This document shows, piece by piece, positions 18,995-49,750 of a stretch of 64,000 nucleotides of DNA (the first letter of the stretch is position 1; every line of letters starts with the position of its first letter). The translations under genes were made by a program, and so were the position numbers. A model generated the notes under the pieces. That model searched no databases. It had not been told where the DNA came from and was given only the letters and a program-made list of their open reading frames with translations. This stretch comes from Desulfuromonas sp. (lineage in GTDB: Bacteria > Desulfobacterota > Desulfuromonadia > Desulfuromonadales > UBA2294): assembly GCA_002869615.1 (NCBI GenBank), contig PKUH01000106.1:70158-134157 (forward strand), in the 5' to 3' direction.

Positions 18995-19018
18995 AAAAAA
19001 GGCGCCGAAAGGCGCCTG
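18995..19018 (-). terminator. Intrinsic terminator of the cytochrome/barrel operon
   Basis: A GGCGCC-GAAA-GGCGCC hairpin (stable GAAA-type loop region) followed on the minus strand by six T residues. It is 25 nt after the stop of the barrel gene and insulates the TrmN6-like gene. Confidence 0.88.
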
Positions 19019-19042: not shown

Positions 19043-21388
19043 TCAAAATGTTTTTTTGATGTTAACCTGCCAGCGCTGTTCATCGCGATCCATGACCAGA
19101 CCCAGATCATCTTCGGTTCGCATGCCGTACTCATACTCTATTCCAGCTGTCAATTTACTGAAAATAAAGTCAGAGTAAAGACCATAACCTGCTTCAAGTG
19201 TGCCAGTCTCAACATCTTGCTGCAACCGCGTCTTTGCTCCCAATCGAGACCAGATTTTTGGATAATAATTGCCAATGATTGCCAACATCCATTTTTCAGA
19301 GGTTTCACCCAATTCTGGTTCAAAAACTTCATATTTCAGGATTTGTTCAACAGAATAAAGCTTTCTGACCCGGCCATTGACTACAAATTTCTGATACAAC
19401 TGCTCCTGTTCAAGTTCATAGTGAATTCCTCCCTCATTTGCTCTATCTGAATTGACCATATCAAATATAAACTTTAAACTAGCCCCCCAGTTTCGCGAGA
19501 GAGAGTAACCGACCAGAGCACTGCTGTTCAATGCGTAGCCATCGAAATAACTACCCATTTTCTTCGTAGAATCACCTGAAAAACCAAGCATACTGGTACT
19601 TAGATTGTCGCCCATGCCCAAAACATTTAGGATCGAAACGGACATTGCCTTTTCCGAATAATCGAGACGGTGTTCGAGGCTATATTGCTCAAAATTCTCA
19701 TTGTCAAATTCGAGATATTTTGATGTGACCGCAATCCGGTTTTTCATTCGATTAACTGAAACGTGATCAACAAAAACAGTAATATCAGAACGGAACAAAC
19801 TATCGGAGATATAAAGCCCACTGCCAGAACCGCTTGAATTCCCAGTAATGCCACTTATTGATCTTGCCTTAATATAATTTACAACACCATCTGTTGTCTC
19901 GCCACTCCCGTATGAAAAGTCTGCTTCAACGCCATAGCGCAATCGACTATTCAGATCTTTTGTAAACCTGTTATCACATGTGATCTGCCAATAGCTCAAG
20001 TCCCTCAGAAGGGTTGCATTATCTTCTTCAGAAATATATGAAAAGTCGAGTTCAGTTAAAAAATGAAAATCTTTAACTATCTTTCTATTAGTTGTTACAG
20101 CCACACCCGCCTTAAACGCCGATCCATTGCCATACCAGTTGCCATTAACAGTCTCCACCTCAAGTACAGGAGATAGCTTGTATTTACCGGTCTTGTTAAG
20201 ATCGAATCTCGTAGATGAATAAAAATTATTTTCAGCCCTTTCCTGACTGATCAGGGCAAACGGCCTGTTCTCTTTCTCCATCGAACCAATCAGAGTCGTC
20301 CTAAACGAACTGTTCCGATTGATATCTCCATGTGCGAAAAAGGGTATGACAGCTTCCCTCTTCAATGAGTCGGTTTCTTCGACTCGAGTTAATGAAGAGT
20401 ACAGGTTTGATTTCCAATTTGACTGAGATGTTTTCAGGAAAAAATTCAAAGAATAAGATTTTTCGCGTTCAGAGGGCAGGTTCGGAGTAACCTGCTTCAC
20501 ATAGCTTCCGTCACTCGATATCTTAATCCAATTCGTCAGATTAACCCATTCCCTGACCATGAACTGGTTTATATTGCCGAGGACAATCATCGAACGCTCT
20601 TCATTTTCGGCGGGATTCAGCTCATCAGTGTGATCAAAGAATCTGTAGTGTAACCAATTGTGCTTTTTGTTCAGAGAAACAAAAGCCATTTCCCTGTCCT
20701 TATAATGACTAGGATTAAAAGTTTCCAGATCTTTTACATAGGTTTCTTTGTAATCGAGAAAAAGTTTAGGGAAATGTGACAGTATGTCCCTGTAGCGCCC
20801 GAGATAACTACCATTCCGGATACCAAGAACAAGTGAGACACCAGTTACGATTTGCGTTCCATCATCGGTATCCGTAACAATATCGGGCGTCAAAATTCGG
20901 CCATTCTTTTCAGTGATTATTAATTCATTGAAGCTTCCATCTGAAAAGAAGTTGTTATCATATTCAAACCGCGCTTTGTTCATGTCGCGAGAGTAAAGAT
21001 GCATACGGAAAGGCAACCCCCCTGGAGCGAATACGAAATCGCCCTCATAAAGGACCTTCGAGGTATCTACTTCAAGCTCAGATTGAATACCGGCAACTGT
21101 AATATCTGTATTAAAGTCTGTCCATTCGCCGCCAAGAGCAATTTGGTACTCACCGCCCCGACCATTGAGAATTCTTCCTTTTGAATGGAACCAAAGGGAG
21201 TACTTCTGAGAAAAATAATCTGCCTCTTCGACTGAAGCACCAGCCTCCCTTGCATCATAATGGCCAGCACTCCAATCCAGTGAACCGGACACCCTCGCAG
21301 AAGCACAAGGCGCAATAACCATCGAAATCAGAATGATTAATGACAGGGCAAAACAAATATTTAATCTATTTACAAACATCGAATCCAT
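19043..21388 (-). CDS. Outer-membrane beta-barrel protein of a putative porin-cytochrome locus
   Basis: A 781-aa exported protein with a signal peptide (hydrophobic about residues 9-27, cleavage after CASA). The mature part alternates short amphipathic strands with polar turns, lacks long hydrophobic helices and ends in ...NIKKTF, the terminal Phe typical of BAM-assembled outer-membrane proteins. Its size (about 750 aa mature) resembles porins of electron-transfer conduits (MtrB/PioB and Geobacter analogues), though I see no named family motif. It is the last gene of the operon and lies 216 nt downstream of the octaheme cytochrome gene. A role as a transmembrane sheath or exporter for the linked cytochromes is inferred from context. 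No clear ribosome site precedes the ATG. Confidence 0.78.
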   Translation of the reverse strand: MDSMFVNRLNICFALSLIILISMVIAPCASARVSGSLDWSAGHYDAREAGASVEEADYFSQKYSLWFHSKGRILNGRGGEYQIALGGEWTDFNTDITVAGIQSELEVDTSKVLYEGDFVFAPGGLPFRMHLYSRDMNKARFEYDNNFFSDGSFNELIITEKNGRILTPDIVTDTDDGTQIVTGVSLVLGIRNGSYLGRYRDILSHFPKLFLDYKETYVKDLETFNPSHYKDREMAFVSLNKKHNWLHYRFFDHTDELNPAENEERSMIVLGNINQFMVREWVNLTNWIKISSDGSYVKQVTPNLPSEREKSYSLNFFLKTSQSNWKSNLYSSLTRVEETDSLKREAVIPFFAHGDINRNSSFRTTLIGSMEKENRPFALISQERAENNFYSSTRFDLNKTGKYKLSPVLEVETVNGNWYGNGSAFKAGVAVTTNRKIVKDFHFLTELDFSYISEEDNATLLRDLSYWQITCDNRFTKDLNSRLRYGVEADFSYGSGETTDGVVNYIKARSISGITGNSSGSGSGLYISDSLFRSDITVFVDHVSVNRMKNRIAVTSKYLEFDNENFEQYSLEHRLDYSEKAMSVSILNVLGMGDNLSTSMLGFSGDSTKKMGSYFDGYALNSSALVGYSLSRNWGASLKFIFDMVNSDRANEGGIHYELEQEQLYQKFVVNGRVRKLYSVEQILKYEVFEPELGETSEKWMLAIIGNYYPKIWSRLGAKTRLQQDVETGTLEAGYGLYSDFIFSKLTAGIEYEYGMRTEDDLGLVMDRDEQRWQVNIKKTF

Positions 21389-21604
21389 TCAATATCTTGC
21401 AAAAAACTCCAGATTGAACCCTTGCCAACCCATTACGGATTGACAAACTCACGATTAACCTGCAATTATTATGCCTCCAGCTAGACCCTGCCGACTTGGT
21501 ATGCAAGACAAATCAACGCAACATTCCGGGCAAAAAATCGGCCAAATAGCACTGACCAAACAAAGTTATTTCACTGCATTTTATATTCAAGGCAATCTTA
21601 ATAT

Positions 21605-22591
21605 TTATTTAGTGTGGCACTTGGAGCAGATCATCATTCCCGATACTTTTTCGGGAAAATACTGTTGGGTCATTCCTCCATGCGGCTTGTGACAACTCAC
21701 ACAGCTTAGTTCTCTGCCACTTAATGAACTGGGATCTGGCTTACCACTAACAGGGTGCCCCTTTCCTGTCCCTTGAGTAAAGTGCTTAAGGACTTCCAGT
21801 CTTTCATGACATTTCATACACAAATCGTTGACTTCGAAATGAAGCTGAGATCGATGATCAGAGGCATGTGAATCATGACATATCAGACACATTCCGACAG
21901 CAACAGGACCATGTACAAACTCATTATCCCGAAACTCCCTTACCTTGCCTAAGTGGCACCCGTTACAAAGATCATTATCATTGTCATTCTTAACTTTGTA
22001 TTTTGCCGGTCGACTCGATTGATCATGACAGTAAACACACTGAAATACCCCGGCAGGACCATGAACATATTTCTTGGCTATAAGGTTCTTGTGACAAGAA
22101 CCGCAGGGATTTCCATCAACCGTCGAGAGTGCTAATTGATCAGGAGATGGGTTCATATTGTGGCATGGGGTACACAACTGCTCTTTTTGCGTTACATGCA
22201 TTACGAAAGGTCTATACCCATCTGGTGGCAATTCATAAGCATCTGACAATACATAAATCTCTGCGTCCACGTTATCGACCAATTTACCCTGCACATACCC
22301 CTCGACCCTGATTGAATTTTTTCCCGGCGCGTATTCGGGTTGCAAAATGAGAAAGTCCTTAAATACCGCTTTGTACTCAGAGCTTGAAATATCAATCGGA
22401 CTGCTTCGAAGGCCATTGATTTCGACAACAACTGCTTCGATCGAAGGTTGAGAGCCTCCTTTCAAGATAATATACCCGGGCCCCTTCAGAAATGTTTTAT
22501 CTTCCGGATAAATCATCACCAGAGAATGAGCCAATAAAGGCATGAACAAAAAGAAAAAGAAACCAAAAATAATTATTCTAGTTTTATACAT
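21605..22591 (-). CDS. Octaheme c-type cytochrome with N-terminal beta-sandwich-like domain
   Basis: A 328-aa exported protein with eight C-x-x-C-H haem sites (CTPCH, CGSCH, CVYCH, CNGCH, CLICH, CMKCH, CVSCH, CSKCH), all in the C-terminal half (from about residue 138). A signal peptide (about 1-23, FFFFLFMPLLAHS) is followed by ~110 residues without cysteines and rich in beta-type sequence, likely an Ig-like domain. Spacing of haem sites and extra histidines (VHGP, SHASDH) fits bis-His coordination of the doubled-CXXCH group. It lies between the NHL lipoprotein and barrel genes, suggesting a periplasmic or outer-membrane electron carrier. The exact role is inferred. Confidence 0.88.
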   Translation of the reverse strand: MYKTRIIIFGFFFFLFMPLLAHSLVMIYPEDKTFLKGPGYIILKGGSQPSIEAVVVEINGLRSSPIDISSSEYKAVFKDFLILQPEYAPGKNSIRVEGYVQGKLVDNVDAEIYVLSDAYELPPDGYRPFVMHVTQKEQLCTPCHNMNPSPDQLALSTVDGNPCGSCHKNLIAKKYVHGPAGVFQCVYCHDQSSRPAKYKVKNDNDNDLCNGCHLGKVREFRDNEFVHGPVAVGMCLICHDSHASDHRSQLHFEVNDLCMKCHERLEVLKHFTQGTGKGHPVSGKPDPSSLSGRELSCVSCHKPHGGMTQQYFPEKVSGMMICSKCHTK

Positions 22592-22637
22592 CAGAGCAAC
22601 TCCAAAAGGTCTATATACCTGGTTACCGTTCAGTCAT

Positions 22638-23741
22638 TCATTGTTGGGGTTTAAACATCTGCGGGATCACTGCCTGTCCCGGCAACACCGGATTCTCTTT
22701 CAGGTAGTCCTCAGTCAAATATTGAAAGCGATGAATCATTCTGTTTAACGTGTCAACGATCCAGATCGTTTCTTGTTTATCAACATCAACACCTTCCGGC
22801 AGATAAAATCCCCCGGGGGCTATGCCCCCCTCTTCAGCAGGGTATTTACCGCCGATAGTTGTCAGAAAAATACCGTCGTGACTAAAAACAACAATCCGGT
22901 GTGCAAGGGAGTCCGTAACATAAACATGTCCAGAGGGGCTAACGGCTATCCCTTTCGGCATCTGGAAAGAACCCAGTGCAGTACCTCTTTCACCAAATGA
23001 TCTTAGAAACTTGCCATCGGCATCAAAAACCTGGACTCGTGCATTTAATGCATCCAAAACAAACAGATTTCCATTCATGTCAAGATCAAGGTCAACCGGG
23101 AAATTAAACTCTCCTTGAGCCGTGCCTCGCCGCCCAATCTTATAAACATTTTCCCTGGTTTTTGCAGAGTAAACAAACACCTGATGGTCATCAGGCGATA
23201 CGACGTAAATCCTGCTTCTGGATTCATCGACCGCAAGATTAACCGGTCGATTGATCCCATCTAGAAACCATTCGTCAAGCAATTTTTCTTCAGAGTTATA
23301 AATGCATATTTTTTTCTTTTTGGCATCAACAACATACAATTGCCCAATGCTGTCACCAGCCAAGCCCATTGGTTGCACAAAAGACTTTATGTTTCCTTTT
23401 CTATCTCTTAATTTCTCCAATTGCCCCGTGACTAAATCGATAGCATGAACAAACCCGCCAACAGGCTCAGAGACATAAAACTTCCCACCACCGTTTGATA
23501 AGACATCGTACGGATGGGAAAAAACAGATACAGGAGCCTCTCTGCCAAAAATAGCCAATTCAATTGCACTTACAGTCTCCTTCTCAATGTCATAGTCGGA
23601 CTGATAAGAACTTATGTATTCAATCTTGGGATCATCGGACAAAAGCGGCCAGAAGTACCTTTTAGTGACTTCCTGACTGGGTGCACATCCAAAAAACAAA
23701 AACATCGGAATAGCTATAAATATCATCCTGACAAACAACAT
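22638..23741 (-). CDS. NHL-repeat beta-propeller lipoprotein
   Basis: A 367-aa predicted lipoprotein: lipobox-like FLFFGC with Cys19, then six NHL-type repeats forming a propeller. Repeat cores include FNFPVDLDLDMNGNLFVLDA, then RVQVFDADGKFLRSFGERG, PKGIAVSPSGHVYVTDSLAH and YLPEGVDVDKQETIWIVDTL. NHL propellers mediate protein-protein contacts. NHL genes accompany several multihaem cytochrome clusters in Geobacter (for example near omcS, as I recall), where they are suspected assembly or docking factors. It lies 20 nt after the large cytochrome and 46 nt before the octaheme one. Confidence 0.87.
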   Translation of the reverse strand: MLFVRMIFIAIPMFLFFGCAPSQEVTKRYFWPLLSDDPKIEYISSYQSDYDIEKETVSAIELAIFGREAPVSVFSHPYDVLSNGGGKFYVSEPVGGFVHAIDLVTGQLEKLRDRKGNIKSFVQPMGLAGDSIGQLYVVDAKKKKICIYNSEEKLLDEWFLDGINRPVNLAVDESRSRIYVVSPDDHQVFVYSAKTRENVYKIGRRGTAQGEFNFPVDLDLDMNGNLFVLDALNARVQVFDADGKFLRSFGERGTALGSFQMPKGIAVSPSGHVYVTDSLAHRIVVFSHDGIFLTTIGGKYPAEEGGIAPGGFYLPEGVDVDKQETIWIVDTLNRMIHRFQYLTEDYLKENPVLPGQAVIPQMFKPQQ

Positions 23742-23761
23742 AAATTCCTAACAATAATAGA

Positions 23762-25441
23762 CTAATCGTTCAGAACTCGACGCTCTCGATCATAATATTT
23801 CGGTTTGTGGCAACCGGCCAGACAAGCCCCCCCAGTATCTGTGTTGGTCATTTCAATCGGGATTTGCCATTTGCCGAAACCCGGGACATTGTCTAATACG
23901 AGGTGGTCTTGCTTGGCGCCGTGCACTCCATGGCAAACATTACAGGTACGCCCTTTATTCTTATTGACATGAATGAAATGCAAGTTCCGGTCGCCATTAC
24001 GGAAGTTGGTCGCTTCGGATGTCCTTTGATATTCGAAAGCATTTCGATCATGGCACTGTAAACATAGGCTGTACATTGTCGGCGAATAGGGTGCATAAAA
24101 ACCCCGGGGCCAGTTGCCGTTAAGTAGTTTCACCCGCCTCGATCCGTGCGGAGCATGACAAGCCCAACATTCAGCATCGGAAACCGGCTGATGTTGAAAC
24201 TTGTAAGCTGAAAACTCGAGGATCTTATCTTCATGACAGGAAGCACATATCTCTGTCGGTCCCATGGTGAACATATTGGTTTCACCGGTGCCATGTGCAT
24301 CATGACATGAGCTGCAACCATCCTCGAGTGCATCATGCTTGAATGGTTCACCTGTCGCCTTCAGTACTCCACCATGACAGATAAAGCAGAGCTTATCGCC
24401 CGTCTCCGGCAACATGAACTCATTCTCTTCACTATGCGGGTTATGACAATTCGCACAACCATCTTCAATTATCGGATGTACGTTCTCGCGAGTGGTCATT
24501 TCTGCCTTGCTTTCATGACACATCAGGCAGAGAGCGGTCTCTTCTTCGGGCAACTGATTTTCAGCATTTGAAGCATGCGGATCGTGGCAGATACCGCACT
24601 CACCGGCCGCAACCGGCCCGTGTACATACCTACCATCCGCCTTACTCTCGTGACATTCGTAGCAGAGTCGGCTTCCTTCAGCCGGTAGCATCAGGGCCGC
24701 GGAACCGGCATGCGGATTATGACAGGAGGTGCAACCATCCTCCAGGGCCGAGTGAACATGGGACAGCCCGGAGGTCGGGTCATCATGACATTCAAGGCAA
24801 AGGTCATTCCCCGCCGCCGGAAGCATGTTTCCGGCCGGCCCGGAATGCGGATTGTGACATGAGACACAACCATCCTCAAGGGCTGTGTGAATATGCGCCA
24901 AACCGGAGGTCGGATCATCATGACACTCAAGACAAAGAGCATTCCCCGAAACCGGAAGCATGTTTTCGGCCGGGCCGGCATGCGGATCGTGGCACGAAGT
25001 GCAGCCATCATCAAGAGCCGGATGGATATGTTCCCCTTCAGATTTTTCCTCATGACACATGAAGCAAAGATTGTCGTCGGGTTGATAAAGAAATTTTTCC
25101 TGATTACTCTGATGCGGGCTGTGGCAGCCGGCACAATCATCTTCAACGGCCGGGTGGATATGCGCCTGCCCCGCCGCAATATTATCATGACACATCAGGC
25201 AAAGTTGGCTCCCGTTCTCGGGAAAAGTGAAAGCGCCGCGGCTTTCCGGATGTTTTTTGCCGGTCGCTTCGTGGCAGCTGTCACACTCGCCGCCGGCGAC
25301 CGGATCGTGCACATACCTGGCCTTGCCCATAACAGCGTGACACGAGGACGTAACACACCCCTCGGCCATGGCCGTACCAGCAAAAAAGACCAGTTGGATA
25401 ACACCAAAAAGATAAAAAAACCTGAATGAATTTGAAATCAA
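23762..25441 (-). CDS. Large multihaem c-type cytochrome (19 CXXCH plus two variant sites)
   Basis: A 559-aa exported cytochrome with nineteen C-x-x-C-H sites. It also has a CX4CH at C29-C34-H35 right after the signal peptide and a CX3CH at C540-C544-H545, so up to 21 haems. Sites alternate in pairs with short HIHPAxEDGC links, the doubled-CXXCH pattern; two adjacent 45-residue units (residues 145-234) are nearly identical. A TTG at 25441 is the likely start: it has GGAGGG 5 nt upstream and gives a good signal peptide ending GTAMA. It is the first gene of the operon behind a sigma-54-like promoter. Haems this numerous in tandem suggest long-range electron transfer at the cell surface or across the periplasm. 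Confidence 0.9.
   Translation of the reverse strand: MISNSFRFFYLFGVIQLVFFAGTAMAEGCVTSSCHAVMGKARYVHDPVAGGECDSCHEATGKKHPESRGAFTFPENGSQLCLMCHDNIAAGQAHIHPAVEDDCAGCHSPHQSNQEKFLYQPDDNLCFMCHEEKSEGEHIHPALDDGCTSCHDPHAGPAENMLPVSGNALCLECHDDPTSGLAHIHTALEDGCVSCHNPHSGPAGNMLPAAGNDLCLECHDDPTSGLSHVHSALEDGCTSCHNPHAGSAALMLPAEGSRLCYECHESKADGRYVHGPVAAGECGICHDPHASNAENQLPEEETALCLMCHESKAEMTTRENVHPIIEDGCANCHNPHSEENEFMLPETGDKLCFICHGGVLKATGEPFKHDALEDGCSSCHDAHGTGETNMFTMGPTEICASCHEDKILEFSAYKFQHQPVSDAECWACHAPHGSRRVKLLNGNWPRGFYAPYSPTMYSLCLQCHDRNAFEYQRTSEATNFRNGDRNLHFIHVNKNKGRTCNVCHGVHGAKQDHLVLDNVPGFGKWQIPIEMTNTDTGGACLAGCHKPKYYDRERRVLND
24740..25009 (-). repeat. Two tandem 135-bp coding repeats in the large cytochrome
   Basis: Units 24875-25009 and 24740-24874 each encode 45 residues with the frame DGCxSCHxPHxGPAxNMLP followed by LCLECHDDPTSGL, and are highly similar at DNA and protein level. 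A more diverged third unit follows. This shows recent internal duplication of a two-haem module. Confidence 0.85.
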
Positions 25442-25604
25442 AGCTGCCCTCCGCGCCCCGGCACTACGGTGATTACACGAAACAGATCAAGCGCAATGCC
25501 GTATTTTGTTCCAGGACGTTATCATTGCCGCAAGTGGCAAACGACACGATGCACTGACAGACCTCAAGTAATCCGCATGAATATACTAAATCCAGAGGGA
25601 AAAT

Positions 25605-25620
25605 TGCAAAAAGCAGGCCA
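25605..25620 (-). promoter_or_regulatory. Sigma-54-type promoter of the cytochrome operon
   Basis: The minus strand reads TGGC then CTGCTTT then TTGCA, with -24 GG (25619-25618) and -12 GC (25607-25606) separated by exactly 10 bases, matching the RpoN consensus TGGCACG-N4-TTGCA at most key positions. The start would be near 25594, leaving a ~150-nt leader. An activator site was not identified. Confidence 0.65.
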
Positions 25621-25704
25621 GCATGGAAACATTAGGATCATTGAAAATACTCAAGCAACCACCACTTAAAAAATAACGGTCACAAGCGATTTTCCGAACA
25701 AAAT

Positions 25705-25737
25705 AAAACCGGCGCAGGATAATCAGGCGCCGGTTTT
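25705..25737. terminator. Intrinsic terminator after ccsA (bidirectional hairpin)
   Basis: An 11-bp perfect stem AAAACCGGCGC / GCGCCGGTTTT with a loop of about 11 bases. The A and T tracts on both sides allow function in either direction; on the minus strand it closes the resB-ccsA unit. Confidence 0.88.
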
Positions 25738-25790: not shown

Positions 25791-26651
25791 CTAGCTGCCA
25801 CCGTAAGAGTGCAGTCCTGAGAGGACCAGATTAACGCCAAGGTAACAGAAAATGGTGGCAGCAAAACCAACTATCGAAAGGATTGCCGCACGCTTTCCGG
25901 CCCAACCGCGGGTAAAACGGGCATGCAGGAACGCTGCATAAATAAACCAGACGATCAGGCTCCAGGTCTCCTTCGGATCCCAGCTCCAGTAGGTACCCCA
26001 GGCATAGTTGGCCCAGGCGGCGCCGGTGATAATTCCGAGAGAGAGCAGCGGAAAACCGATCATGATCGATTTATAGTTGATGTCATCGAGAATTTTGGTG
26101 CTCGGGAAAAGACCAAGAATCCCCCCGGCCGGCGAATCACCTTCGCTTTTATCTTCCTTGCCCGCCTTGATCAAATACATGATCGAGACCCCGCAAGCGA
26201 CCGCAAAAGCAGCGTAACCGAGAAAACAGGTGATAACGTGATAGGTCAGCCAGTTGCTCTGCAAGGCCGGCACCAGTGGATCAATTGCATCGTTCAGGTT
26301 CAGCTGGGCCCAGGTCATGCCGAGAAAAGCAAAAGGAACGACAAAAGCACCGATTGCCTTCTGCTTGTATTTCCAATCGATCAGGATATAGACCACGATG
26401 ATCGACCAGGCAAAAAAGACAACCGACTCGTAAAGATTCGACAGGGGCGCCCGGCCGTCGGCACCGAGCAGCTGGTATGACTCATACCAGCGCAGGCCAA
26501 GGGCCGCCGTATGAACAAGCAGACCGATATAAGCGAGGATGTTGCCGCCGATTGCCACCTTGCCATTACGGGTGGCCAGATAGGCGATAAAAAGAACCAT
26601 CGAAGCGAAGTATGCGATTGTTACCAAATTAAAAAGCTGAGTACTGTCCAT
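25791..26651 (-). CDS. ccsA: Cytochrome c biogenesis protein CcsA (CcsB/ResC type, System II)
   Basis: A 286-aa polytopic membrane protein (about eight helices) that with ResB forms the System II haem exporter/ligase attaching haem to CXXCH motifs outside the membrane. The tryptophan-rich haem-handling motif is present as WGTYWSWDPKETW, and conserved His residues flank it (LVHTAAL, TYHVITC, FLHARF). It lies 23 nt after resB, the usual order, and is followed by a terminator. The multihaem proteins encoded just downstream are obvious clients. Confidence 0.95.
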   Translation of the reverse strand: MDSTQLFNLVTIAYFASMVLFIAYLATRNGKVAIGGNILAYIGLLVHTAALGLRWYESYQLLGADGRAPLSNLYESVVFFAWSIIVVYILIDWKYKQKAIGAFVVPFAFLGMTWAQLNLNDAIDPLVPALQSNWLTYHVITCFLGYAAFAVACGVSIMYLIKAGKEDKSEGDSPAGGILGLFPSTKILDDINYKSIMIGFPLLSLGIITGAAWANYAWGTYWSWDPKETWSLIVWFIYAAFLHARFTRGWAGKRAAILSIVGFAATIFCYLGVNLVLSGLHSYGGS

Positions 26652-26674: not shown

Positions 26675-28048
26675 CTAGCGGGAAAGCTCCTCTTTCAGTT
26701 TATCCCTGAATTCATCAAACCAGATAGCAAAGGCCGGTTGATTCCGGTGCGCATTGCCGGCTACCATGATTCCGACTTTATCGCCGACCGGCCGCAACGT
26801 CACCCACAGGCGCCGGTGCGAAAGGAAGAATGCGATCATGCTGCCGACAACCAGCAGGGCACACCCGAGCCAGACGACCCAGACTCCGGGGTCTTTGGCA
26901 ACCTGCAGGCCGGTATAGAAGCTCTGTTCAACCCCAAGAAGTGTGACGATATACTCGCCACCTCTTTTGGCGTCAAACTGCGGATAATTCTGCATAACAA
27001 CAAAAGGCGTACCATGCTGATGCTGGCCATCTGTTCCCTTGTCAATATTGACCTGGGCGGCCGGCCCGAAGTTCCTGAAGTTATCTACATGCTGCATCGG
27101 AATCAGGCGATTGCCTCCAGGTATCTCAATATGCCCGCCCTCTTTGCCGGTAACCTCGGCAACCTCACCGGTAGCACGTTCTTCAACCCGAAAGCGGTAA
27201 ATCTTATCAACGGCCGGGCCGTAACTCGACTGGTAAAAGGTGATTCCCTTGTAAGTCAGCGGATCATTGACCTCAATCGTTTTCTTGAGAATTTCGGTGC
27301 CGTTTTCAAGGACAACGAGATCGCTGGTAAAATCCTTGGGACGGGTACTCCCAGGATAATAAGTGACGGTAAAGTCGTCACATCGCACCTGGAAATCAAG
27401 CTTGATCGGCTCCCGGCCGGTCCGCGGCCAGACCTGATCAACAACCTGTCCTTCAGGAACATTGACATAAGCCTTATAGCCGAACCAGACACCGATAATC
27501 GCACCCAGCAGAATGATCAGGAGCGACATATGGGTGACGTAGACGCCAAAACGGGCATACGGTGCCTTTTGCGAGAAGAAATGTATCTTTTCCCCGTCTT
27601 CACTGACAACCGGTTTGGCAAAATTGCCGGAGAGAAACTCTGAGACTTTCCCGCGGACGTCCTCGATTGAATGCTCGGTGACGATCTCATCAACATTAGA
27701 AAGTGACCTGTAGAAGGGGTCATCCGGGGTCAGATTCGGCTCATTGACGATCTTCATGACTTTCGGCAGCCGCTTAATCGAACAACAAATCAGATTCATC
27801 GCGAAGATGCCGAGCAGCGAAACAAACCACCAGGAATGATACATATCGAAGAAATCGAGGGTATCAAACAGACGATACATCTTTTCGCCGTAAAGCTGCA
27901 TATACTCCTGCGGCGATTTTCCCTGCTGAATCACAGTTCCGATGATTGAAGTAACAGCCAACAGAATCAAGGTGACTATGGTCAGTTTCAGCGAACAGAA
28001 AAAATCCCACATCACAGTGACTGGGCTATCTTGATTCCTTTTACTCAA
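26675..28048 (-). CDS. resB: Cytochrome c biogenesis protein ResB (Ccs1)
   Basis: A 457-aa ResB/Ccs1 protein, partner of CcsA in System II. It has N-terminal helices (SLKLTIVTLILLAVTSIIGTV, then a second after FFDMYHSWWFVSLLGIFAMN), a third (VYVTHMSLLIILLGAIIGVW), a large periplasmic domain and a final helix near residue 400 (VWVVWLGCALLVVGSMIAF). I choose a TTG start at 28048: AGGAG is 7 nt upstream, while the intervening ATG in another frame meets a stop at once. A longer in-frame version lacks a ribosome site. It precedes ccsA. Confidence 0.93.
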   Translation of the reverse strand: MSKRNQDSPVTVMWDFFCSLKLTIVTLILLAVTSIIGTVIQQGKSPQEYMQLYGEKMYRLFDTLDFFDMYHSWWFVSLLGIFAMNLICCSIKRLPKVMKIVNEPNLTPDDPFYRSLSNVDEIVTEHSIEDVRGKVSEFLSGNFAKPVVSEDGEKIHFFSQKAPYARFGVYVTHMSLLIILLGAIIGVWFGYKAYVNVPEGQVVDQVWPRTGREPIKLDFQVRCDDFTVTYYPGSTRPKDFTSDLVVLENGTEILKKTIEVNDPLTYKGITFYQSSYGPAVDKIYRFRVEERATGEVAEVTGKEGGHIEIPGGNRLIPMQHVDNFRNFGPAAQVNIDKGTDGQHQHGTPFVVMQNYPQFDAKRGGEYIVTLLGVEQSFYTGLQVAKDPGVWVVWLGCALLVVGSMIAFFLSHRRLWVTLRPVGDKVGIMVAGNAHRNQPAFAIWFDEFRDKLKEELSR

Positions 28049-28174
28049 GTCATTTCTCCTGATGCGCCCTGGCAAAGATTACCAAAGCAGTTTTAAATTT
28101 AATTGAGGCACAACTTAAACCGAAGCTTAATTTTAGTCAATGTGCATCCGCACAGTTTTTACATTAATTCCAAA

Positions 28175-30117: not shown

Positions 30118-31722
30118 TTATTTTTCTCCATGCTGTGCTCGTCTTACTGCTGACAGGTTAGCCTCGTAAAGTCTGTTACCAGGGGCCATCTCCAGAGCCT
30201 TCTCATAATAACTGGCTGCCAGAGCATATTCGTTGAGAGCAAAAAAGTTATTGCCAATCGAATTAAAAACTTCCGGATGGTCTCCGTATTTTTCAACATA
30301 ATTCTCTAATCCTGAGATCGACTCTAAATATTCTTTACTGGAGTATTTTTCATAAGCTCTCGCCTGATAGGCAGATAAAATTCTATTCTGCAGAAACTTC
30401 CCGAGATCGGGCCTAACTTTCAGGGCTTTATCAAAAGAATCAATTGCGGGTTCATAATTCTTTTGTGCCAAATGTTCGTTGCCGAGTTGCATGATGCCGA
30501 TATCAAAGTCAGGATCAAAACGAACCAATTCCTTGAGATAGGTGACCGTATCCGTCCAATATGCGGCATTATTAACAATCGAGACGCTATTGATCACTAT
30601 CAAAAAAGCAATGGAGCAGAGAGCAATGTTCGATTTAATCCTGTACGCGCCAAAGACAAGGAAAACAGCCAGCCCGAGTGAAGAAAGATACAGTGCTTTT
30701 TCAGCATAATAATAATAAGAACCACCAACTACCGAGAGCGGCAGGACCACGAAAAACAAAACGAGCCAAAAAAACATTTGTCGATTTTTTAGAAAAAAAT
30801 ACAGGAGAACTCCGCCGACAAAAAACAATAAAAGCACTTTGAAAAGAAGGATTTGTGATGAGAATAAACTCTGGTCATAGCGATAGATAGTAACGGCATT
30901 GTCCTGCAGAAAAAAAATTTTGATGTGCCTGTAAACAACTTCGGAAGCAAGGTTCAAATACCCTAGGGCATGCAAGTCTTTCAGGGGGATCTGACCGACG
31001 AATACCGCCCTTACAAACAAATAGATGATCACAAGAGCACTAAAAGGAACCAGCCTTTTCAGAATGTTCAAATCGCAAAATTTCACATATGAATATTCAT
31101 ATGTGATCAATATAGGCAGAAGGAGAATAACAGCTTCCTGGAATAATATGCCTGCCAAGAAGACCAGGCAGGCAACAACATACCTTTTCTTGATATAAAG
31201 GATAAGTGCCAAAAGAATGAACAATGCGGCAAAGATATGAGAGTCGGAATAGGCCCAGTAGACGACCTCACCCCGGGCGGGAATAGATGCATAGAACAAA
31301 CTGGAAACGAATGCAAGCTTATTACTTTGAGTCAGTTCGCGAACCAGGAAGAATGCTGCGACAACAACGAATGAATTAAGTATGAGATTTACGAACTTAT
31401 ACCAGAATACATTGTCAGCAAAAACACTGTATTCAATATAATGAAATAGCGTGGTGAGTGGTCGATAATATTCAAGTGTTTTCACCTCTGCACCCGCATA
31501 AGTGAAATTTTCACCGATAAATTTAGAGCCGAAAAACGATTTTATTGCGGTTGAAAAGGACTTGATTTGGGCGTTATCAACGAAAACACCATTTGAGTCC
31601 CATACGAAACCATTTTTCAGGGTCAACCCGTAAATGACCAGCGAATATAGCGAAAGCAACATCACCATCAACCATAAATGATTGTTATCTCGCCCTAAAC
31701 TCTCCTTTCCCTGAAAAAACAT
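30118..31722 (-). CDS. TPR-containing polytopic membrane protein, GT-C glycosyltransferase-like
   Basis: A ~534-aa AT-rich gene between purH and purD. The N-terminal two thirds hold about ten hydrophobic helices with a loop YGLTLKNGFVWDSNGVFVDN resembling the acidic catalytic loop of TMTC/PMT-type GT-C transferases. The motif VVYWAYSDSHIFAALFIL is shared with the protein at 51568. The C-terminal ~150 residues carry TPR units (YEPAIDSFDKALKVRPDLG, YALAASYYEKALEMAPGNR). I place the start at ATG 31722; in-frame codons upstream overlap purH in its coding region. A role in glycan or protein O-glycosylation is inferred from the fold; nothing links it to purines except position. Confidence 0.8.
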   Translation of the reverse strand: MFFQGKESLGRDNNHLWLMVMLLSLYSLVIYGLTLKNGFVWDSNGVFVDNAQIKSFSTAIKSFFGSKFIGENFTYAGAEVKTLEYYRPLTTLFHYIEYSVFADNVFWYKFVNLILNSFVVVAAFFLVRELTQSNKLAFVSSLFYASIPARGEVVYWAYSDSHIFAALFILLALILYIKKRYVVACLVFLAGILFQEAVILLLPILITYEYSYVKFCDLNILKRLVPFSALVIIYLFVRAVFVGQIPLKDLHALGYLNLASEVVYRHIKIFFLQDNAVTIYRYDQSLFSSQILLFKVLLLFFVGGVLLYFFLKNRQMFFWLVLFFVVLPLSVVGGSYYYYAEKALYLSSLGLAVFLVFGAYRIKSNIALCSIAFLIVINSVSIVNNAAYWTDTVTYLKELVRFDPDFDIGIMQLGNEHLAQKNYEPAIDSFDKALKVRPDLGKFLQNRILSAYQARAYEKYSSKEYLESISGLENYVEKYGDHPEVFNSIGNNFFALNEYALAASYYEKALEMAPGNRLYEANLSAVRRAQHGEK

Positions 31723-31753
31723 TCCAATCTCTGAAAATTTCGAACAGAAAGAA

Positions 31754-33319
31754 CTAATGCCTGAAATGGCGCATCGACGTAAACACCATCGCCATGCCAT
31801 GCTCATCCGCGGCGGCAATCACTTCCTCATCCCGGATAGAGCCACCCGGCTGGATAACCGCGGCGATGCCCGCTTCGGCCGCATTGTCGATCCCATCGCG
31901 GAACGGAAAGAAGGCATCGGAGGCCATAACCGAGCCCTTGACCTCGAGCCCGGCGTGTTCCGCCTTGATCGCAGCGATGCGGGCCGAGTTGACCCGGCTC
32001 ATCTGACCGGCTCCAACGCCGACAGTCATACCGTCTTTGCCGTAGACGATGGCGTTCGATTTGACAAACTTGGCGACCCGCCAGGTGAAGAGCAAATCCT
32101 CCATCTCCTTTTCGGTCGGCTGGCGCTTGCTGACCACCTTGAGCTCGCTGTAGAGATCGAGATCGCAATCCTGAACGAGGATGCCGCCGTTGACCTTCTT
32201 GTAGTCGAACCGGGCAGCCGGTTCTTGCGGCCATTCGCCGCACGCAAGCAGCCGGACATTCTTCTTGGCGGCAACGACAGCAACCGCTTCATCCGAAACC
32301 GCGGGAGCGATAATCACCTAGACAAACTGCTGGTCGACAATCGCTTGCGCGGTTGCCGCATCGAGTTCACGATTAAAGGCGATGATCCCGCCGAAGGCCG
32401 ACTCGGTGTCGGTGCTAAAGGCCCGCTCATAGGCTTCGAGCAGAGTTGCGCCGTAGGCGACGCCGCAGGGGTTAGCGTGCTTGACGATCACGCATGCCGG
32501 CCCCTCATCGAACTGCTTGACGCATTCAAGCGCCGCATCGGTATCGGCAATATTGTTGTAGGAGAGCGCCTTGCCCTGAAGCTGCCGGGCTGTGGCAATC
32601 GAGGACTCGGAGATATCTTTCTCGACGTAAAAGGCTGCCTTCTGATGCGGATTTTCGCCGTAGCGCATCACTTCATTGCGCTTGTACTGAACGGTCAGGG
32701 TGTCGGAGAAGGTGGTCGGCTCATCTCCGGTGCGACAGCCGAGCCAGTTGGAGATGGCTCCATCATAGGCAGCGGTGTGCTGATAAACCTTGACCGCCAG
32801 CTTGAAATTGGTTTCACGCGAGACTGCCCCATCACTTGAATTCATCTCCTCGAGCACGGCCGCATAGTCGTTATGGTTAACCACAACAGTCACGTCCCTG
32901 TTATTCTTGGCAGCCGAACGAAGCATGGTCGGGCCACCGATATCGATATTCTCGATAGCATCTTCGAGGGAGCAGTCGGGATCGGCGACAGTCGCCTCGA
33001 AGGGGTAGAGATTGACCACAACCATGTCGATCGGCTCGATGCCATGTTCTTCCATCTTGGCAACATGCTCGGGATTTTCCCGCATCCCTAGCAGACCACC
33101 ATGCACCTTCGGATGCAGGGTCTTGACCCGGCCGTCGAGCATTTCCGGGAAACCGGTAAAATCAGAGACATCCTTGACGTCAAGACCGGCCTCGCGCAGC
33201 ATCCTGGCGGTTCCACCGGTCGAGAGAATTTCGATATCGAACCGGCTCAGCTCCTTTGCAAAATCGACGATACCGGCCTTGTCCGACACACTGATCAGGG
33301 CCCGTTGAATCACTGCCAT
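31754..33319 (-). pseudogene. purH: purH with in-frame amber: bifunctional AICAR transformylase/IMP cyclohydrolase
   Basis: PurH performs the last two steps of IMP synthesis. The reading is 521 codons, normal length, with the MGS-like cyclohydrolase domain ([31 protein letters not shown]) and the transformylase domain with catalytic Lys-His in [14 protein letters not shown]. At codon 334 (bases 32320-32318) a TAG interrupts the frame between DQQFV and VIIAPAVSD, where family members have Glu (one base, GAG to TAG). Everything after it stays in frame and conserved to the normal end. The next codon is GTG, so reinitiation is conceivable but would give an incomplete transformylase fragment. It could be a genuine mutation, a suppressed amber or a sequencing error. 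Confidence 0.85.
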
Positions 33320-44130: not shown

Positions 44131-46425
44131 CTAGAGGAACTCGAGATAAGGTGATGCAACAGGCCTCAGCTCAGGGAAGCGCTTGAAAACTATACCGAAA
44201 TATTTTCGAGCATTTTCTTTTTGGCCCATTTTAAAATATGTTTCAGCTAAATTAAAATAAGCATAAGCGAAATCCGGACGCTGTTTGATCGCATTTAAAA
44301 AAAGAGCTACTGCCTGATCATATTTTTCCATATTTTTACTCAGCAAACCATAACTATTAAGGACTCTGCTACTCTCCGGATTCAATCGTAAACTCGCTTT
44401 AAAATTCGCCTCCGCTAAATCTCGACGTTCAAGAATAGTGTATATCTGCGCATAGTTGTAATATATCTGCCAATTCTCGCCGAAATGACGTTCAAGCAAA
44501 CCATACTGCTCAATCGCTTTGTCATAGAAGCCCAACTGCTGCAAAAGAACAGCATACTCACCTCTTCTTGTTGGATTGTTCGGTTCAGCATCTGCCCTGA
44601 TTCGAGCTTTTGCCCGTATCCCCTCCAATTCGGGAAGCAGGCTTTCGTATTCTGCTTTTGCCACATCGACATATTCCCTACAACTGTCCAGCAGTATAAT
44701 TGGACAAGACTTCTCTCTGGATACCTTGTTAAAGCTGGCAGCAGCCTCGATAAGTCGTCCACGACTTCGAAGTATTTTACCCTTGAAAAGAATAAAACGA
44801 ATATTGCCTGGATTTTTTCTGAGCGCTGTTTCGATTAGCTCTTGAGCTCGATCCATATCCGATTGATCGTATGCAATTTTACTTTTATAAAATTCGACGG
44901 TTGCATCCCCCGGGGACTTTTTTTGAGCTTCGGTCATCAGGTCAAGCGCCTTGCCATGAAGTCCTAGTTGCAAATATGCCTCACTAAGAATATGCAGAGG
45001 GAACAGGTTGTTCTCATCCAAAAAAACAGTTTCAGCCGGTTGCAGTAGTTCGACAATTTTTGCGAATTGATTGTTTTTCAGATATTCCCGGGCCAACCAG
45101 TACCTGGCTCGGGAAGAGGTTGGCACTTTTGAAACATTATCCTGCCATAGCCTCTCGGCATTAGCCCAGAGGGAAACTCTATCAAGAGTCAGGATCGAAC
45201 ATACGATCAGAAGCGTTAAAAATATGCCGGCAAGAAGCCTGCTCATGGCAAAGGTCTCGATAAATCCGAGAACGGCAATGATTAGACCGAAACTCGGCAA
45301 ATACATCCGATGCTCGTAAATAGTATCGAGAGGAATAACTGTCGATTCGGTGGCAAGCAACAGAAAAAAAGAAATAATCCCTAAAAATACCAGAGGTTTT
45401 TTCCGGTGCAGAGCCGCACCCAACCCAAACAGGAAAGAGAGGAAAAGAAACCCGAAAAGAGCCCTTGAATCATAAATCGTTTCAATGAGGGGCATGGCAT
45501 ATTCAAATACCTGCCCCACGGGTAGAAAAAAAAGCTTTATATATTTTGTAACGACCCAGAATTGAGTCAACAGGTATTTAAAGTGAACCATATCAACTGA
45601 ATGGACGATCCGGCTGACAACTTCCCCTTCTGCGACCGGTAGAAAGAAATCGACTACCCCACCCTTGATATCTGACACAGTACTGCCAGCGGACAGGAAC
45701 TGATTGACCCCGACAGAAACCGGTAAAAGCATGTACGGCGCTATTGATTTTATGGTTTCGCGGAAGTTCCACTTTTCACCTCTAAAGAGGGCATAATCAA
45801 AGAGAATCAGGAAAAATGGCAAAACGACTGTATTCTCTTTGCTGAACACGGATAAAAAACCGCAGAGGAGCGAAATGACTAGCCAGAATTTGCGCGCACT
45901 GAAAAAGCCATCTCGGCCATTTAACATGGTGCGATATTGAATATAAAAAACCAGTGAAAGCAAGAAGAAGAGACTGCTCAGCAGGGCCATTCTTTGAACA
46001 ACATACATGACAGCCTGACTTTGCAACGGATGAAGTGCAAAAAGACCGGCACCAAAAAATGTCAGCCAGGGTTTCTCTTTGAAAAGGACTCGCAAAAGAC
46101 GGTGCACAAGCAGAACGTTGCAAGCATGTATGATGATATTAACGAAATGGAACCACTTGGGATTCATTCCGAAAAGTTCATAATCCACGAAAAAAGAGAG
46201 GTAGGCGATCCCGCGGGGGTCAAAAACATGACGCAATGCATAACCCAGATCGCCAATCCAGATATTATTGACAATCCTCGCATAGTCATCAAGATACCAG
46301 CCTGCATTCAGCCCTTGGGAATACAATAATAGAACCAGTAGAAAAAGCGACACAGGCGCTATTAATCGTGTGTGCTTAGACTCAGGGGAAAGAAAATATC
46401 GACCGGACTGCTGCTTAGACCTCAT
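44131..46425 (-). CDS. TPR-rich polytopic membrane protein, TMTC/PMT-like GT-C glycosyltransferase
   Basis: A 764-aa protein with an N-terminal ~420-residue membrane region. The first loop contains the acidic pair GWYLDDYARIVNN, typical of TMTC/PMT-type O-mannosyltransferases, and later LFALHPLQSQAVMYVVQRMA and TIYEHRMYLPSFGLIIAVLG are shared with that family. About eight TPR motifs follow (for example YDQAVALFLNAIKQRPDFA, YAYFNLAETYFKMGQKENAR). Its ATG overlaps the end of alr by 11 nt, so it is probably co-translated with alanine racemase. Donor and acceptor are unknown; protein or glycan O-glycosylation in the periplasm is the family-based guess. Confidence 0.83.
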   Translation of the reverse strand: MRSKQQSGRYFLSPESKHTRLIAPVSLFLLVLLLYSQGLNAGWYLDDYARIVNNIWIGDLGYALRHVFDPRGIAYLSFFVDYELFGMNPKWFHFVNIIIHACNVLLVHRLLRVLFKEKPWLTFFGAGLFALHPLQSQAVMYVVQRMALLSSLFFLLSLVFYIQYRTMLNGRDGFFSARKFWLVISLLCGFLSVFSKENTVVLPFFLILFDYALFRGEKWNFRETIKSIAPYMLLPVSVGVNQFLSAGSTVSDIKGGVVDFFLPVAEGEVVSRIVHSVDMVHFKYLLTQFWVVTKYIKLFFLPVGQVFEYAMPLIETIYDSRALFGFLFLSFLFGLGAALHRKKPLVFLGIISFFLLLATESTVIPLDTIYEHRMYLPSFGLIIAVLGFIETFAMSRLLAGIFLTLLIVCSILTLDRVSLWANAERLWQDNVSKVPTSSRARYWLAREYLKNNQFAKIVELLQPAETVFLDENNLFPLHILSEAYLQLGLHGKALDLMTEAQKKSPGDATVEFYKSKIAYDQSDMDRAQELIETALRKNPGNIRFILFKGKILRSRGRLIEAAASFNKVSREKSCPIILLDSCREYVDVAKAEYESLLPELEGIRAKARIRADAEPNNPTRRGEYAVLLQQLGFYDKAIEQYGLLERHFGENWQIYYNYAQIYTILERRDLAEANFKASLRLNPESSRVLNSYGLLSKNMEKYDQAVALFLNAIKQRPDFAYAYFNLAETYFKMGQKENARKYFGIVFKRFPELRPVASPYLEFL

Positions 46426-48085: not shown

Positions 48086-49750
48086 ATGAAACCAGGCATC
48101 AAAAATAATCGCTTCCAACTTGCGCAGCAGGCAATCATCCTGCTTTCAATATTTATCTCTGTTTATATTATCTGCGCCATTCCAATCAACTCCCATGACT
48201 TCTGGTGGCACCTGAATACCGGCGACTACATTCTCGAGCAGACACAACTCCCTGGGAGTGAAGATCCGTACACCTTTTCAGTCATCAATTCTGACGAATA
48301 CAACACGAAACGTGCTGAATTTATCAACAAACAATACTGGATCTCTCAGGTCATTTTTTCTTTCGCTAACAGCGCCATGGGTTTACAGGGTATCATTTAT
48401 CTGCGCGTCGCACTGTTCAGTGTCATTATGTTTGCAGCATACTTTTATGTTCGTAAACGCACAACAATTCTGGCGGCCTGCATATTTCTGCCACTTTTCA
48501 TATTGACAATGGCGATTGTTCTGGAGGATACGGATCGACCGCAAAACTTCGGGTTTCTCTATGCTTTCTTGACTGTAATGATTGTTGAGTTTGCAATTCA
48601 CAAGGCGAAGAGAAACTATCTTCTTCTATGTCTACCGGTCATCCTGCTCTATGCGAATTCTCATGCGGGTGCTGCAGTATCAATCTGCTATCTAGGCGTT
48701 TATGTGTTCTTCTCTTTCTTTGAAAAGCGACTTATCCCTTATAGGGGGGTACTGGCAGTCTGTTTTGCTCTAACCTTTATAGCGATAGGATTAAACCCAA
48801 ACGGCTACCAGGTTTTCACACAAATTTTAGGCACGAATCAATCATACGTTGCGAGCGTGACTTCCGAGTTCAGGTCCCCGTTTTCAATCTTCCACCCATC
48901 GTTGGCATATCCTGGCTGGACTGCGTTCTGGATTCTTACACTGATCGCACCGTTGACGGCGGTTTACCTGCTGGTTAAAAAAGAGTTTTCAGCAGCCTTT
49001 ATTCTGTGTGCGACCCTTGTCATGGCCCTTATCTCAATGCGATATATTTTCTTTTTTACTCCGCTAGCATTTTATTTTACTGCCTGTTTTACTGGCAGTT
49101 TTCTTGACAAAAGAAAACCAAATATCACTCGGCACGAAGGAGTCGCAGCAACATTTATTATTTTTACGTTCGCGCTGATTCTCTTTTTATCACACCAGAA
49201 CATGCAATTTTATTCGTTCAATAATGGCTTACCGCGAACATCTCCATTAATCAGGCAGGATATTTATCCAATTACAGCGACTCAATTTCTAAAGGAGAAT
49301 GATTTAGGCCGGAATATCTTTAACCTTGAGGCATGGGGAGGATATCTGGAATACCATCTATATCCACAATACCGATTTTTTACTGATACGAGGAATCTTG
49401 ATGAAAACAGAATAAAGCAACATTTCTCAATTCTCGCATACAACCAACAGGGAAAAAAACTCTTAAGTGAATACAATATTTCAACTGTTATCATTCCACC
49501 AATCGACTACCGCTCCGGTGCGATCTACAATATCATTCGCGAGTTTTACAGGTCCGACGAGTGGCAGTTGATCTTCTATGGGAAAAACGCGATGGTTTTC
49601 AGTAAGGATCAACGCTCCACCACGATCAGTAAAAGTATGATTTATTTACACGTATTATCTCAATTGAATTACTGGGGGCAAATCTACCCAATAACACCCG
49701 CTTATATAAAAAGCCTGCAGGAAGCAAAATATTTCCTGGCGCGGAGATAA
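48086..49750 (+). CDS. Polytopic membrane protein, GT-C-like, first gene behind the TPP riboswitch
   Basis: A 554-aa AT-rich gene with about eleven hydrophobic helices and a C-terminal soluble domain (from about 390). The first extracytoplasmic loop has NSHDFWWHLNTGDYILE, closely matching DFDTFWHLANGTAML in the protein at 60323, so the two are relatives. The Asp/Trp/His motif is reminiscent of GT-C catalytic loops. Not recognised as a named family, and no similarity to thiamine transporters is apparent. The ATG has no Shine-Dalgarno sequence. It lies 25 nt after the riboswitch terminator and 4 nt before thiED, so it should be thiamine-regulated whatever its role. Confidence 0.75.
   Translation: MKPGIKNNRFQLAQQAIILLSIFISVYIICAIPINSHDFWWHLNTGDYILEQTQLPGSEDPYTFSVINSDEYNTKRAEFINKQYWISQVIFSFANSAMGLQGIIYLRVALFSVIMFAAYFYVRKRTTILAACIFLPLFILTMAIVLEDTDRPQNFGFLYAFLTVMIVEFAIHKAKRNYLLLCLPVILLYANSHAGAAVSICYLGVYVFFSFFEKRLIPYRGVLAVCFALTFIAIGLNPNGYQVFTQILGTNQSYVASVTSEFRSPFSIFHPSLAYPGWTAFWILTLIAPLTAVYLLVKKEFSAAFILCATLVMALISMRYIFFFTPLAFYFTACFTGSFLDKRKPNITRHEGVAATFIIFTFALILFLSHQNMQFYSFNNGLPRTSPLIRQDIYPITATQFLKENDLGRNIFNLEAWGGYLEYHLYPQYRFFTDTRNLDENRIKQHFSILAYNQQGKKLLSEYNISTVIIPPIDYRSGAIYNIIREFYRSDEWQLIFYGKNAMVFSKDQRSTTISKSMIYLHVLSQLNYWGQIYPITPAYIKSLQEAKYFLARR

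Follow-up and report, generated by a model that had tools for sequence, protein, structure and literature searches.

Four adjacent genes on the minus strand of a Desulfuromonas sp. contig (PKUH01000106.1) encode a 21-haem c-type cytochrome, an NHL beta-propeller lipoprotein, an octahaem cytochrome and an outer-membrane beta-barrel. Our neighbourhood comparison showed that they are the four-gene core of the omcE locus, the conserved set that accompanies the filament cytochrome OmcE. The window, that is, the whole 64,000-nucleotide stretch analysed (positions 70,158 to 134,157 of the contig), carries this core in the form of a split operon. Judged from gene order and trees, the omcE operon is divided here into the four-gene core and a two-gene filament cassette, because omcE and a second NHL gene (NHL2) sit elsewhere on the contig and fall with the cassettes of relatives sharing the four-gene layout. 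By the same comparison the gene set itself is not new, being a widespread and largely uncharacterised omcE neighbourhood; what is unusual is the departure of omcE and its NHL partner.

Gene content and linkage to OmcE

The initial annotation of this region had described a four-gene minus-strand unit at 19043-25620 and suggested a link with genes near Geobacter nanowire cytochromes. All four open reading frames were located with these coordinates, and the suggested link proved correct. The genes are as follows (positions in the window):

23762-25441, minus strand: 21-haem c-type cytochrome, 559 amino acids, with signal peptide, TTG start with GGAGGG ahead and MtrA/DmsE-like repeats
22638-23741, minus strand: NHL beta-propeller lipoprotein of the NHL1 type, 367 amino acids, with lipoprotein-type signal
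21605-22591, minus strand: octahaem cytochrome, 328 amino acids, with eight CXXCH motifs and a beta-rich N-terminal domain
19043-21388, minus strand: outer-membrane beta-barrel, 781 amino acids, with C-terminal Phe, a family of its own and about 34 predicted strands

The long cytochrome carries 19 CXXCH motifs, an N-terminal CX4CH and a C-terminal CX3CH, and its 42 cysteines correspond to 21 haems, within the 19-21 proposed initially. The octahaem cytochrome has, as had been noticed, an additional N-terminal part of about 115 amino acids, which was beta-rich when judged by eye and had no Pfam match. Together the core carries 29 haems.

In the neighbourhood survey, every fetched locus was searched with profiles of the locus proteins, and linkage was counted over distinct barrels with at least 4.5 kb upstream. 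The octahaem gene was found in 49/49 of these loci, the long cytochrome in 48/49 and OmcE in 48/49, the window being the sole locus without OmcE beside the barrel. A consistent absence of one of the four genes from homologous loci, which had been named as evidence against the unit, was not seen among these 49. The usual gene order was ResB, CcsB, long cytochrome, NHL1, octahaem cytochrome, NHL2, tetrahaem cytochrome and barrel. The tetrahaem neighbour matched the solved filament cytochromes 7tfs (OmcE; E 1e-31) and 9yuq (6e-45); OmcE forms tetrahaem filaments. In the window, the octahaem gene, the multihaem cytochrome with CX4CH and CX3CH ends and the NHL gene lie on the same strand with a ResB-CcsB pair upstream, the barrel belongs to the family of the omcE-locus core (A1), and the NHL protein grouped in the tree with NHL1 of other omcE loci. 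No omcE gene adjoins the core in the window, and we therefore file it as a split variant of the omcE locus and not as a typical member.

Gene order and published tables fit a correspondence to GSU0613-0619 of G. sulfurreducens. OmcE is GSU0618 in these tables and an operon GSU0615-0617 has been reported (PMC1829397), both consistent with the mapping by order. The ResB-CcsB pair GSU0613-0614 was reported as possibly dedicated to nearby cytochromes (PMC2700814). An apparently identical locus in Geoalkalibacter contains MtoA-like and other cytochromes, an OmcE homologue and two NHL proteins (PMC12016550). An identity with the omcG/omcH cluster (GSU2882-2887), considered first, was abandoned because the order of the genes and the nature of the tetrahaem neighbour indicated omcE. 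Compared with the omcE locus of Geobacteraceae and Desulfuromonadales (GSU0613-GSU0619; 7tfs), the window has the same ResB, CcsB, multihaem, NHL, octahaem and barrel set. It differs in lacking omcE and one NHL gene in the operon, and in its long cytochrome, which has 21 haems where Geobacteraceae have 9-11 and other relatives 9, 11, 19 or 25.

The displaced omcE-NHL2 pair

A profile search of the genome located an OmcE gene at 53472-54059 of the same contig (C106), with an NHL gene directly after it. The pair spans 53.4-55.3k, outside the window and about 35 kb from the barrel. The displaced OmcE grouped with OmcE of the family f5 (Geothermobacter) and family f8 loci (support 96/92), and its NHL gene with the NHL2 genes of the same loci (support 95). 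Four of the f8 loci (L048, L131, L133, L135) have the layout of the window, with long cytochrome, NHL1, octahaem cytochrome and barrel uninterrupted and NHL2-omcE convergent next door; in a fifth locus (L044) the same four genes are followed by omcE-NHL2 after the barrel on the same strand. A single f5 clade was rejected by the OmcE tree (approximately unbiased test, AU, p 5e-5), but a single clade of the loci carrying the second type of cassette was not rejected by the core tree (AU p 0.34); an exchange of the filament cassette under a constant core is suggested rather than shown. The genome has two more OmcE-like genes, both from other paralogous groups: one accompanies giant cytochromes (contig C53) and one stands beside secretion genes (contig C24).

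The barrel family

Proteins of the barrel family, of about 740-815 amino acids and 25-35% identical to the window protein, were present in 39/136 genomes of the order and in named genomes of Geobacter, Geotalea, Geomobilimonas, Geothermobacter and Geoalkalibacter. The alignment-based contig scan returned 40 loci, while a single barrel sequence as query returned none. The nearest relatives were incomplete: one genome (G001, 87% completeness) had no barrel and another (G002) only a 213-amino-acid end of it, at the edge of a contig.

Pfam, NCBIfam and PDB sequence searches of the barrel gave nothing meaningful, and neither PF11854 nor TIGR03509, the models for MtrB/PioB barrels, matched. It had no sequence-profile similarity to the genome's own MtrB-like barrel (contig C103), and profiles did not relate it to the barrel-like proteins (A4) encoded in paralogous cytochrome-NHL clusters. 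Membership of the MtrB family was rejected by the Pfam and NCBIfam searches together with the profile comparison, so that at the sequence level the barrel is a family of its own with no detectable MtrB relationship. The idea of a TonB-dependent receptor, which the initial annotation had named as a possible counter-finding, was also rejected, with no plug or TonB receptor barrel Pfam match in any of 25 family members.

Sequence inspection revealed no canonical lipobox in either cytochrome of the unit, and no extracellular MtrC/OmcB-type surface lipoprotein cytochrome was found in the cluster, in agreement with the earlier remark that the usual MtrA/MtrC or OmcB/OmaB pairing is absent. Since the barrel stands outside the MtrB/PioB family and no surface lipoprotein cytochrome accompanies it, the unit is not a canonical porin-cytochrome complex. 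As in MtrCAB and OmbB-OmaB-OmcB, a large outer-membrane barrel is encoded together with a multihaem cytochrome of MtrA/DmsE-like type, whereas an NHL propeller and an octahaem protein replace the surface lipoprotein cytochrome. By description, the OetABI-type conduit of syntrophic sulfate reducers also combines a barrel, cytochromes and filament-type cytochromes in one cassette (PMC10553843); OetB, however, is a surface lipoprotein cytochrome, and the window unit has none.

The pair GSU2203-GSU2204 likewise combines a decahaem DmsE-type cytochrome with a barrel, the latter an MtrB-like (seleno)protein; its members fall in NF041027/NF041028 and PF11854 and have no profile similarity to the window barrel. 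This genome has such a pair on contig C103 (L117, 7744-11190), in which a decahaem GSU2203-type cytochrome gene is followed by an MtrB-like barrel gene whose motif CVGWYHG-U-A contains an in-frame TGA. The same barrel gene, again with one in-frame TGA, is present in nine further genomes of the order. When 8 of those 9 loci were checked codon by codon, the TGA lay in the same motif in 7, with one not resolved, and each had a downstream hairpin. The family is already known, as it matches NF041027 (GSU2204 family (seleno)protein). On contig C106, outside the window and about 5 kb from omcE-NHL2, the genes for tRNA-Sec, selA, selB and selD lie in one run (L114, 3546-8339), indicating that selenocysteine insertion is available, and an MtrB-type conduit barrel with selenocysteine merits attention.

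Possible function of the core

The initial annotation had proposed a new porin-cytochrome conduit or an export module. The barrel is not of the MtrB/PioB family and the gene set is not new; conduit and export are both still candidates. With slightly better than even confidence, we read the core as a conduit across the outer membrane that links the periplasm electrically to the OmcE filament. The electron conduit would consist of the barrel and the 21-haem MtrA/DmsE-like cytochrome, with the octahaem protein and NHL lipoprotein as its possible periplasmic adaptor and scaffold, and the OmcE filament would stand where classical complexes have MtrC or OmcB. Electrons would pass from the periplasm through the barrel to the filament, which, with its companion, would be encoded by the omcE-NHL2 pair. 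The long cytochrome scored 247.7 bits against TIGR03508 (cut-off 192.2; the score is summed over repeats) and matched the MtrA chain 6r2q_A (E 1.6e-11), as expected of the MtrA/DmsE-like periplasmic cytochrome of MtrB/PioB-type complexes. The conduit is also favoured because the core contains no other surface cytochrome. The linkage to OmcE, the f8 layouts, the grouping of the displaced pair with those cassettes and the sigma-54-like elements before omcE in relatives and before the cytochrome operon, the barrel and (with one mismatch) omcE in this genome count for this reading as well.

The main rival, serious though rather unlikely in our judgement, is an export or assembly apparatus for OmcE, in which the barrel would be the exit channel and the propellers would guide or cap the filament, as proposed for osc and OmcS. 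The near-perfect linkage of the core to OmcE argues for it, and the NHL propellers, which are always present, recall the osc companions of OmcS. OscD is said to be a propeller and OscE-G to be channel-like, so that, by description, the osc set also joins beta-propeller and channel-like companions to a filament cytochrome. Osc companion genes were assigned to the folding, secretion and morphology of OmcS, as far as summarised from work cited in PMC13194489. In addition, the barrel has about 34 predicted strands compared with 26 in MtrB (PMC12133095), and such a barrel could pass folded protein. However, a pure secretion channel has no need of a 21-haem MtrA/DmsE-like cytochrome and an 8-haem cytochrome, and the tree placed OmcE-like genes with NHL partners in loci without this barrel, which therefore is not generally required for OmcE-like cytochromes; both points favour the conduit. 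Moreover, the OscH-type prolyl isomerase of the osc set is not in the window locus; one was found in the C24 locus (see below). A dual role, in which the barrel would first let OmcE subunits out and afterwards form the base feeding electrons into the growing filament, would account for both the OmcE linkage and the haem load of the core. We consider it quite improbable, as we know of no precedent for one barrel doing both.

Several observations weigh against the conduit. The matches to the MtrA and DmsE models rest on repeated CXXCH units and the kinship may be overstated, and the structure of the 21-haem cytochrome was predicted at a mean predicted local distance difference test (pLDDT) score of 36 only. 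The barrel was modelled better by AlphaFold (mean pLDDT 85.7, predicted template modelling score 0.66, about 34 strands counted from the DSSP line). With Foldseek against PDB, this model retrieved generic outer-membrane barrels (SlpA, LptD, the MtrB chain 6r2q_B and BtuB) at low TM-score (template modelling score), and in the comparison with MtrB there was no Pfam or NCBIfam match and a profile probability of 3%. Furthermore, when GSU0616, which by gene order probably corresponds to the octahaem gene, was mutated, Fe(III) reduction was kept and U(VI) reduction was 30% higher, with polarity and redundancy not excluded in that study (PMC1829397). Since this mutant reduced as well or better, the core would not be essential in that background.

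The long cytochrome varied among relatives in its haem number, which was 9, 10-11, 19, 21 or 25 across loci (45 distinct rows), with 21 found only in the window, and the window gene contains a 135-bp tandem repeat (80% identity) equal to 45 amino acids and two haems per unit. MtrA, with 10 haems, measures roughly 80 angstrom. If packed like MtrA, 21-25 haems could span much of the periplasm, and the variable haem number yields a testable prediction on the reach of this cytochrome across it. More tentatively than for the conduit itself, we suggest that the omcE system may be modular, with a fixed four-gene conduit and an expandable periplasmic wire (9-25 haems, two per repeat) serving as a socket for an exchangeable filament cassette of OmcE and its own NHL partner. 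If this is true, the function of the surface cytochrome in classical conduits falls to filament cytochromes. The export, anchoring and electron feeding of cytochrome nanowires were stated as unresolved in a 2025 review (PMC12307469). A core that almost always accompanies OmcE, together with a genome that holds the core genes and the filament genes as separate units, offers a direct genetic handle on these three processes.

Unit boundaries and sigma-54-type elements

The unit is bounded and preceded by the following features:

19000-19017, minus strand: intrinsic terminator hairpin AGGCGCC-TTTC-GGCGCCT and then a T run, after the barrel gene
21530-21544, minus strand: second sigma-54-like element TGGCCGATTTTTTGC, before the barrel gene, in the gap that is occupied by NHL2 and omcE in relatives
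25606-25620, minus strand: sigma-54-like -24/-12 element TGGCCTGCTTTTTGC (TGGC-N7-TTGC), upstream of the 21-haem cytochrome gene
25701-25737, minus strand: hairpin AAAACCGGCGC / GCGCCGGTTTT with an 11-nt loop, predicted terminator of the ResB-CcsB unit
25791-26651, minus strand: CcsB/CcsA-type cytochrome c maturation protein (TIGR03144, PF01578), an adjacent separate unit and conserved neighbour
26675-28075, minus strand: ResB cytochrome c maturation protein (PF05140), adjacent and a conserved neighbour

ResB and CcsB, a system II cytochrome c maturation pair, lie directly upstream of the four genes and are separated from them by the hairpin at 25737-25701 after CcsB/CcsA. This hairpin was read directly from the sequence, the terminator scan having skipped its 11-nt loop. 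By these signals the four genes form one minus-strand unit between two terminators, the GGCGCC hairpin boundary noticed initially being present with its T run at 19017-19000. An Rfam search of the region gave no riboswitch and only sub-threshold chance matches.

The sigma-54-like promoter of the initial annotation, at 25620-25606, is probably real, since the position of the element was conserved in relatives and this genome encodes RpoN (rpoN). In the whole window, TGGC-N7-TTGC occurred at chance level (3 found, 2.8 expected); 2 of the 3 sites fell in the two long gaps of the unit on the correct strand. Among relatives, 32/52 omcE genes had the element less than 300 bp upstream, where base composition predicts 0.17 and the opposite strand gave 1; for the long cytochrome the figures were 5/41 (0.18 expected) and for the barrel 6/53 (0.33 expected). 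The rows behind these counts include closely related, non-independent genomes, and a script guessed the start codons. The element at 21530-21544, not described initially, may serve the barrel as its own promoter or be a remnant of the omcE promoter. An own promoter, together with the loss of omcE and NHL2 from the operon, would suit a core that in this organism is now an OmcE-independent conduit, the distant pair working without it. We regard this as very unlikely, as the pair is still on the same contig with a matching promoter-like element (a one-mismatch site before the distant omcE) and the f8 relatives of the same layout keep it next door.

Other loci

The OmcE-like gene on contig C24 (L062, 7263-16555) stands with genes for a PpiC-type prolyl isomerase, an NHL lipoprotein and a heptahaem cytochrome, its product being a tetrahaem protein that matched 7tfs (E 4e-16). 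These genes are directly upstream of GspF/GspE/PilM-like secretion genes (named by eye), and the NHL, OmcE-like and heptahaem trio was conserved in four other genomes (G002, G004, G014, G062). In its make-up the locus is similar to an osc-like filament locus linked to type II/IV secretion machinery. The paralogue on contig C53 (L116, 7578-19644) lies in a row with a 947-amino-acid NHL-like frame and two frames with 36 and 21 haem motifs, and G001 and several further genomes had related loci.

In genomes that lack the window-type barrel, or in other families, we observed a parallel cytochrome-NHL cluster (L156, L157, L167, L168). It comprises genes for a multihaem cytochrome, an OmcE-like tetrahaem cytochrome, an NHL protein, a small multihaem lipoprotein, an unrelated barrel-like frame of 690-790 amino acids, a further NHL protein and an OmcE-like multihaem cytochrome, and may be a second filament-plus-barrel module.

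Large multi-pass membrane proteins are scattered in the window (30118-31818, 44131-46425, 48086-49750, 51568-53262, 56474-58156, 60323-62086 and 62101-63372). Some of them have C-terminal TPR-like repeats, and by eye they appeared glycosyltransferase- or O-antigen-ligase-like.

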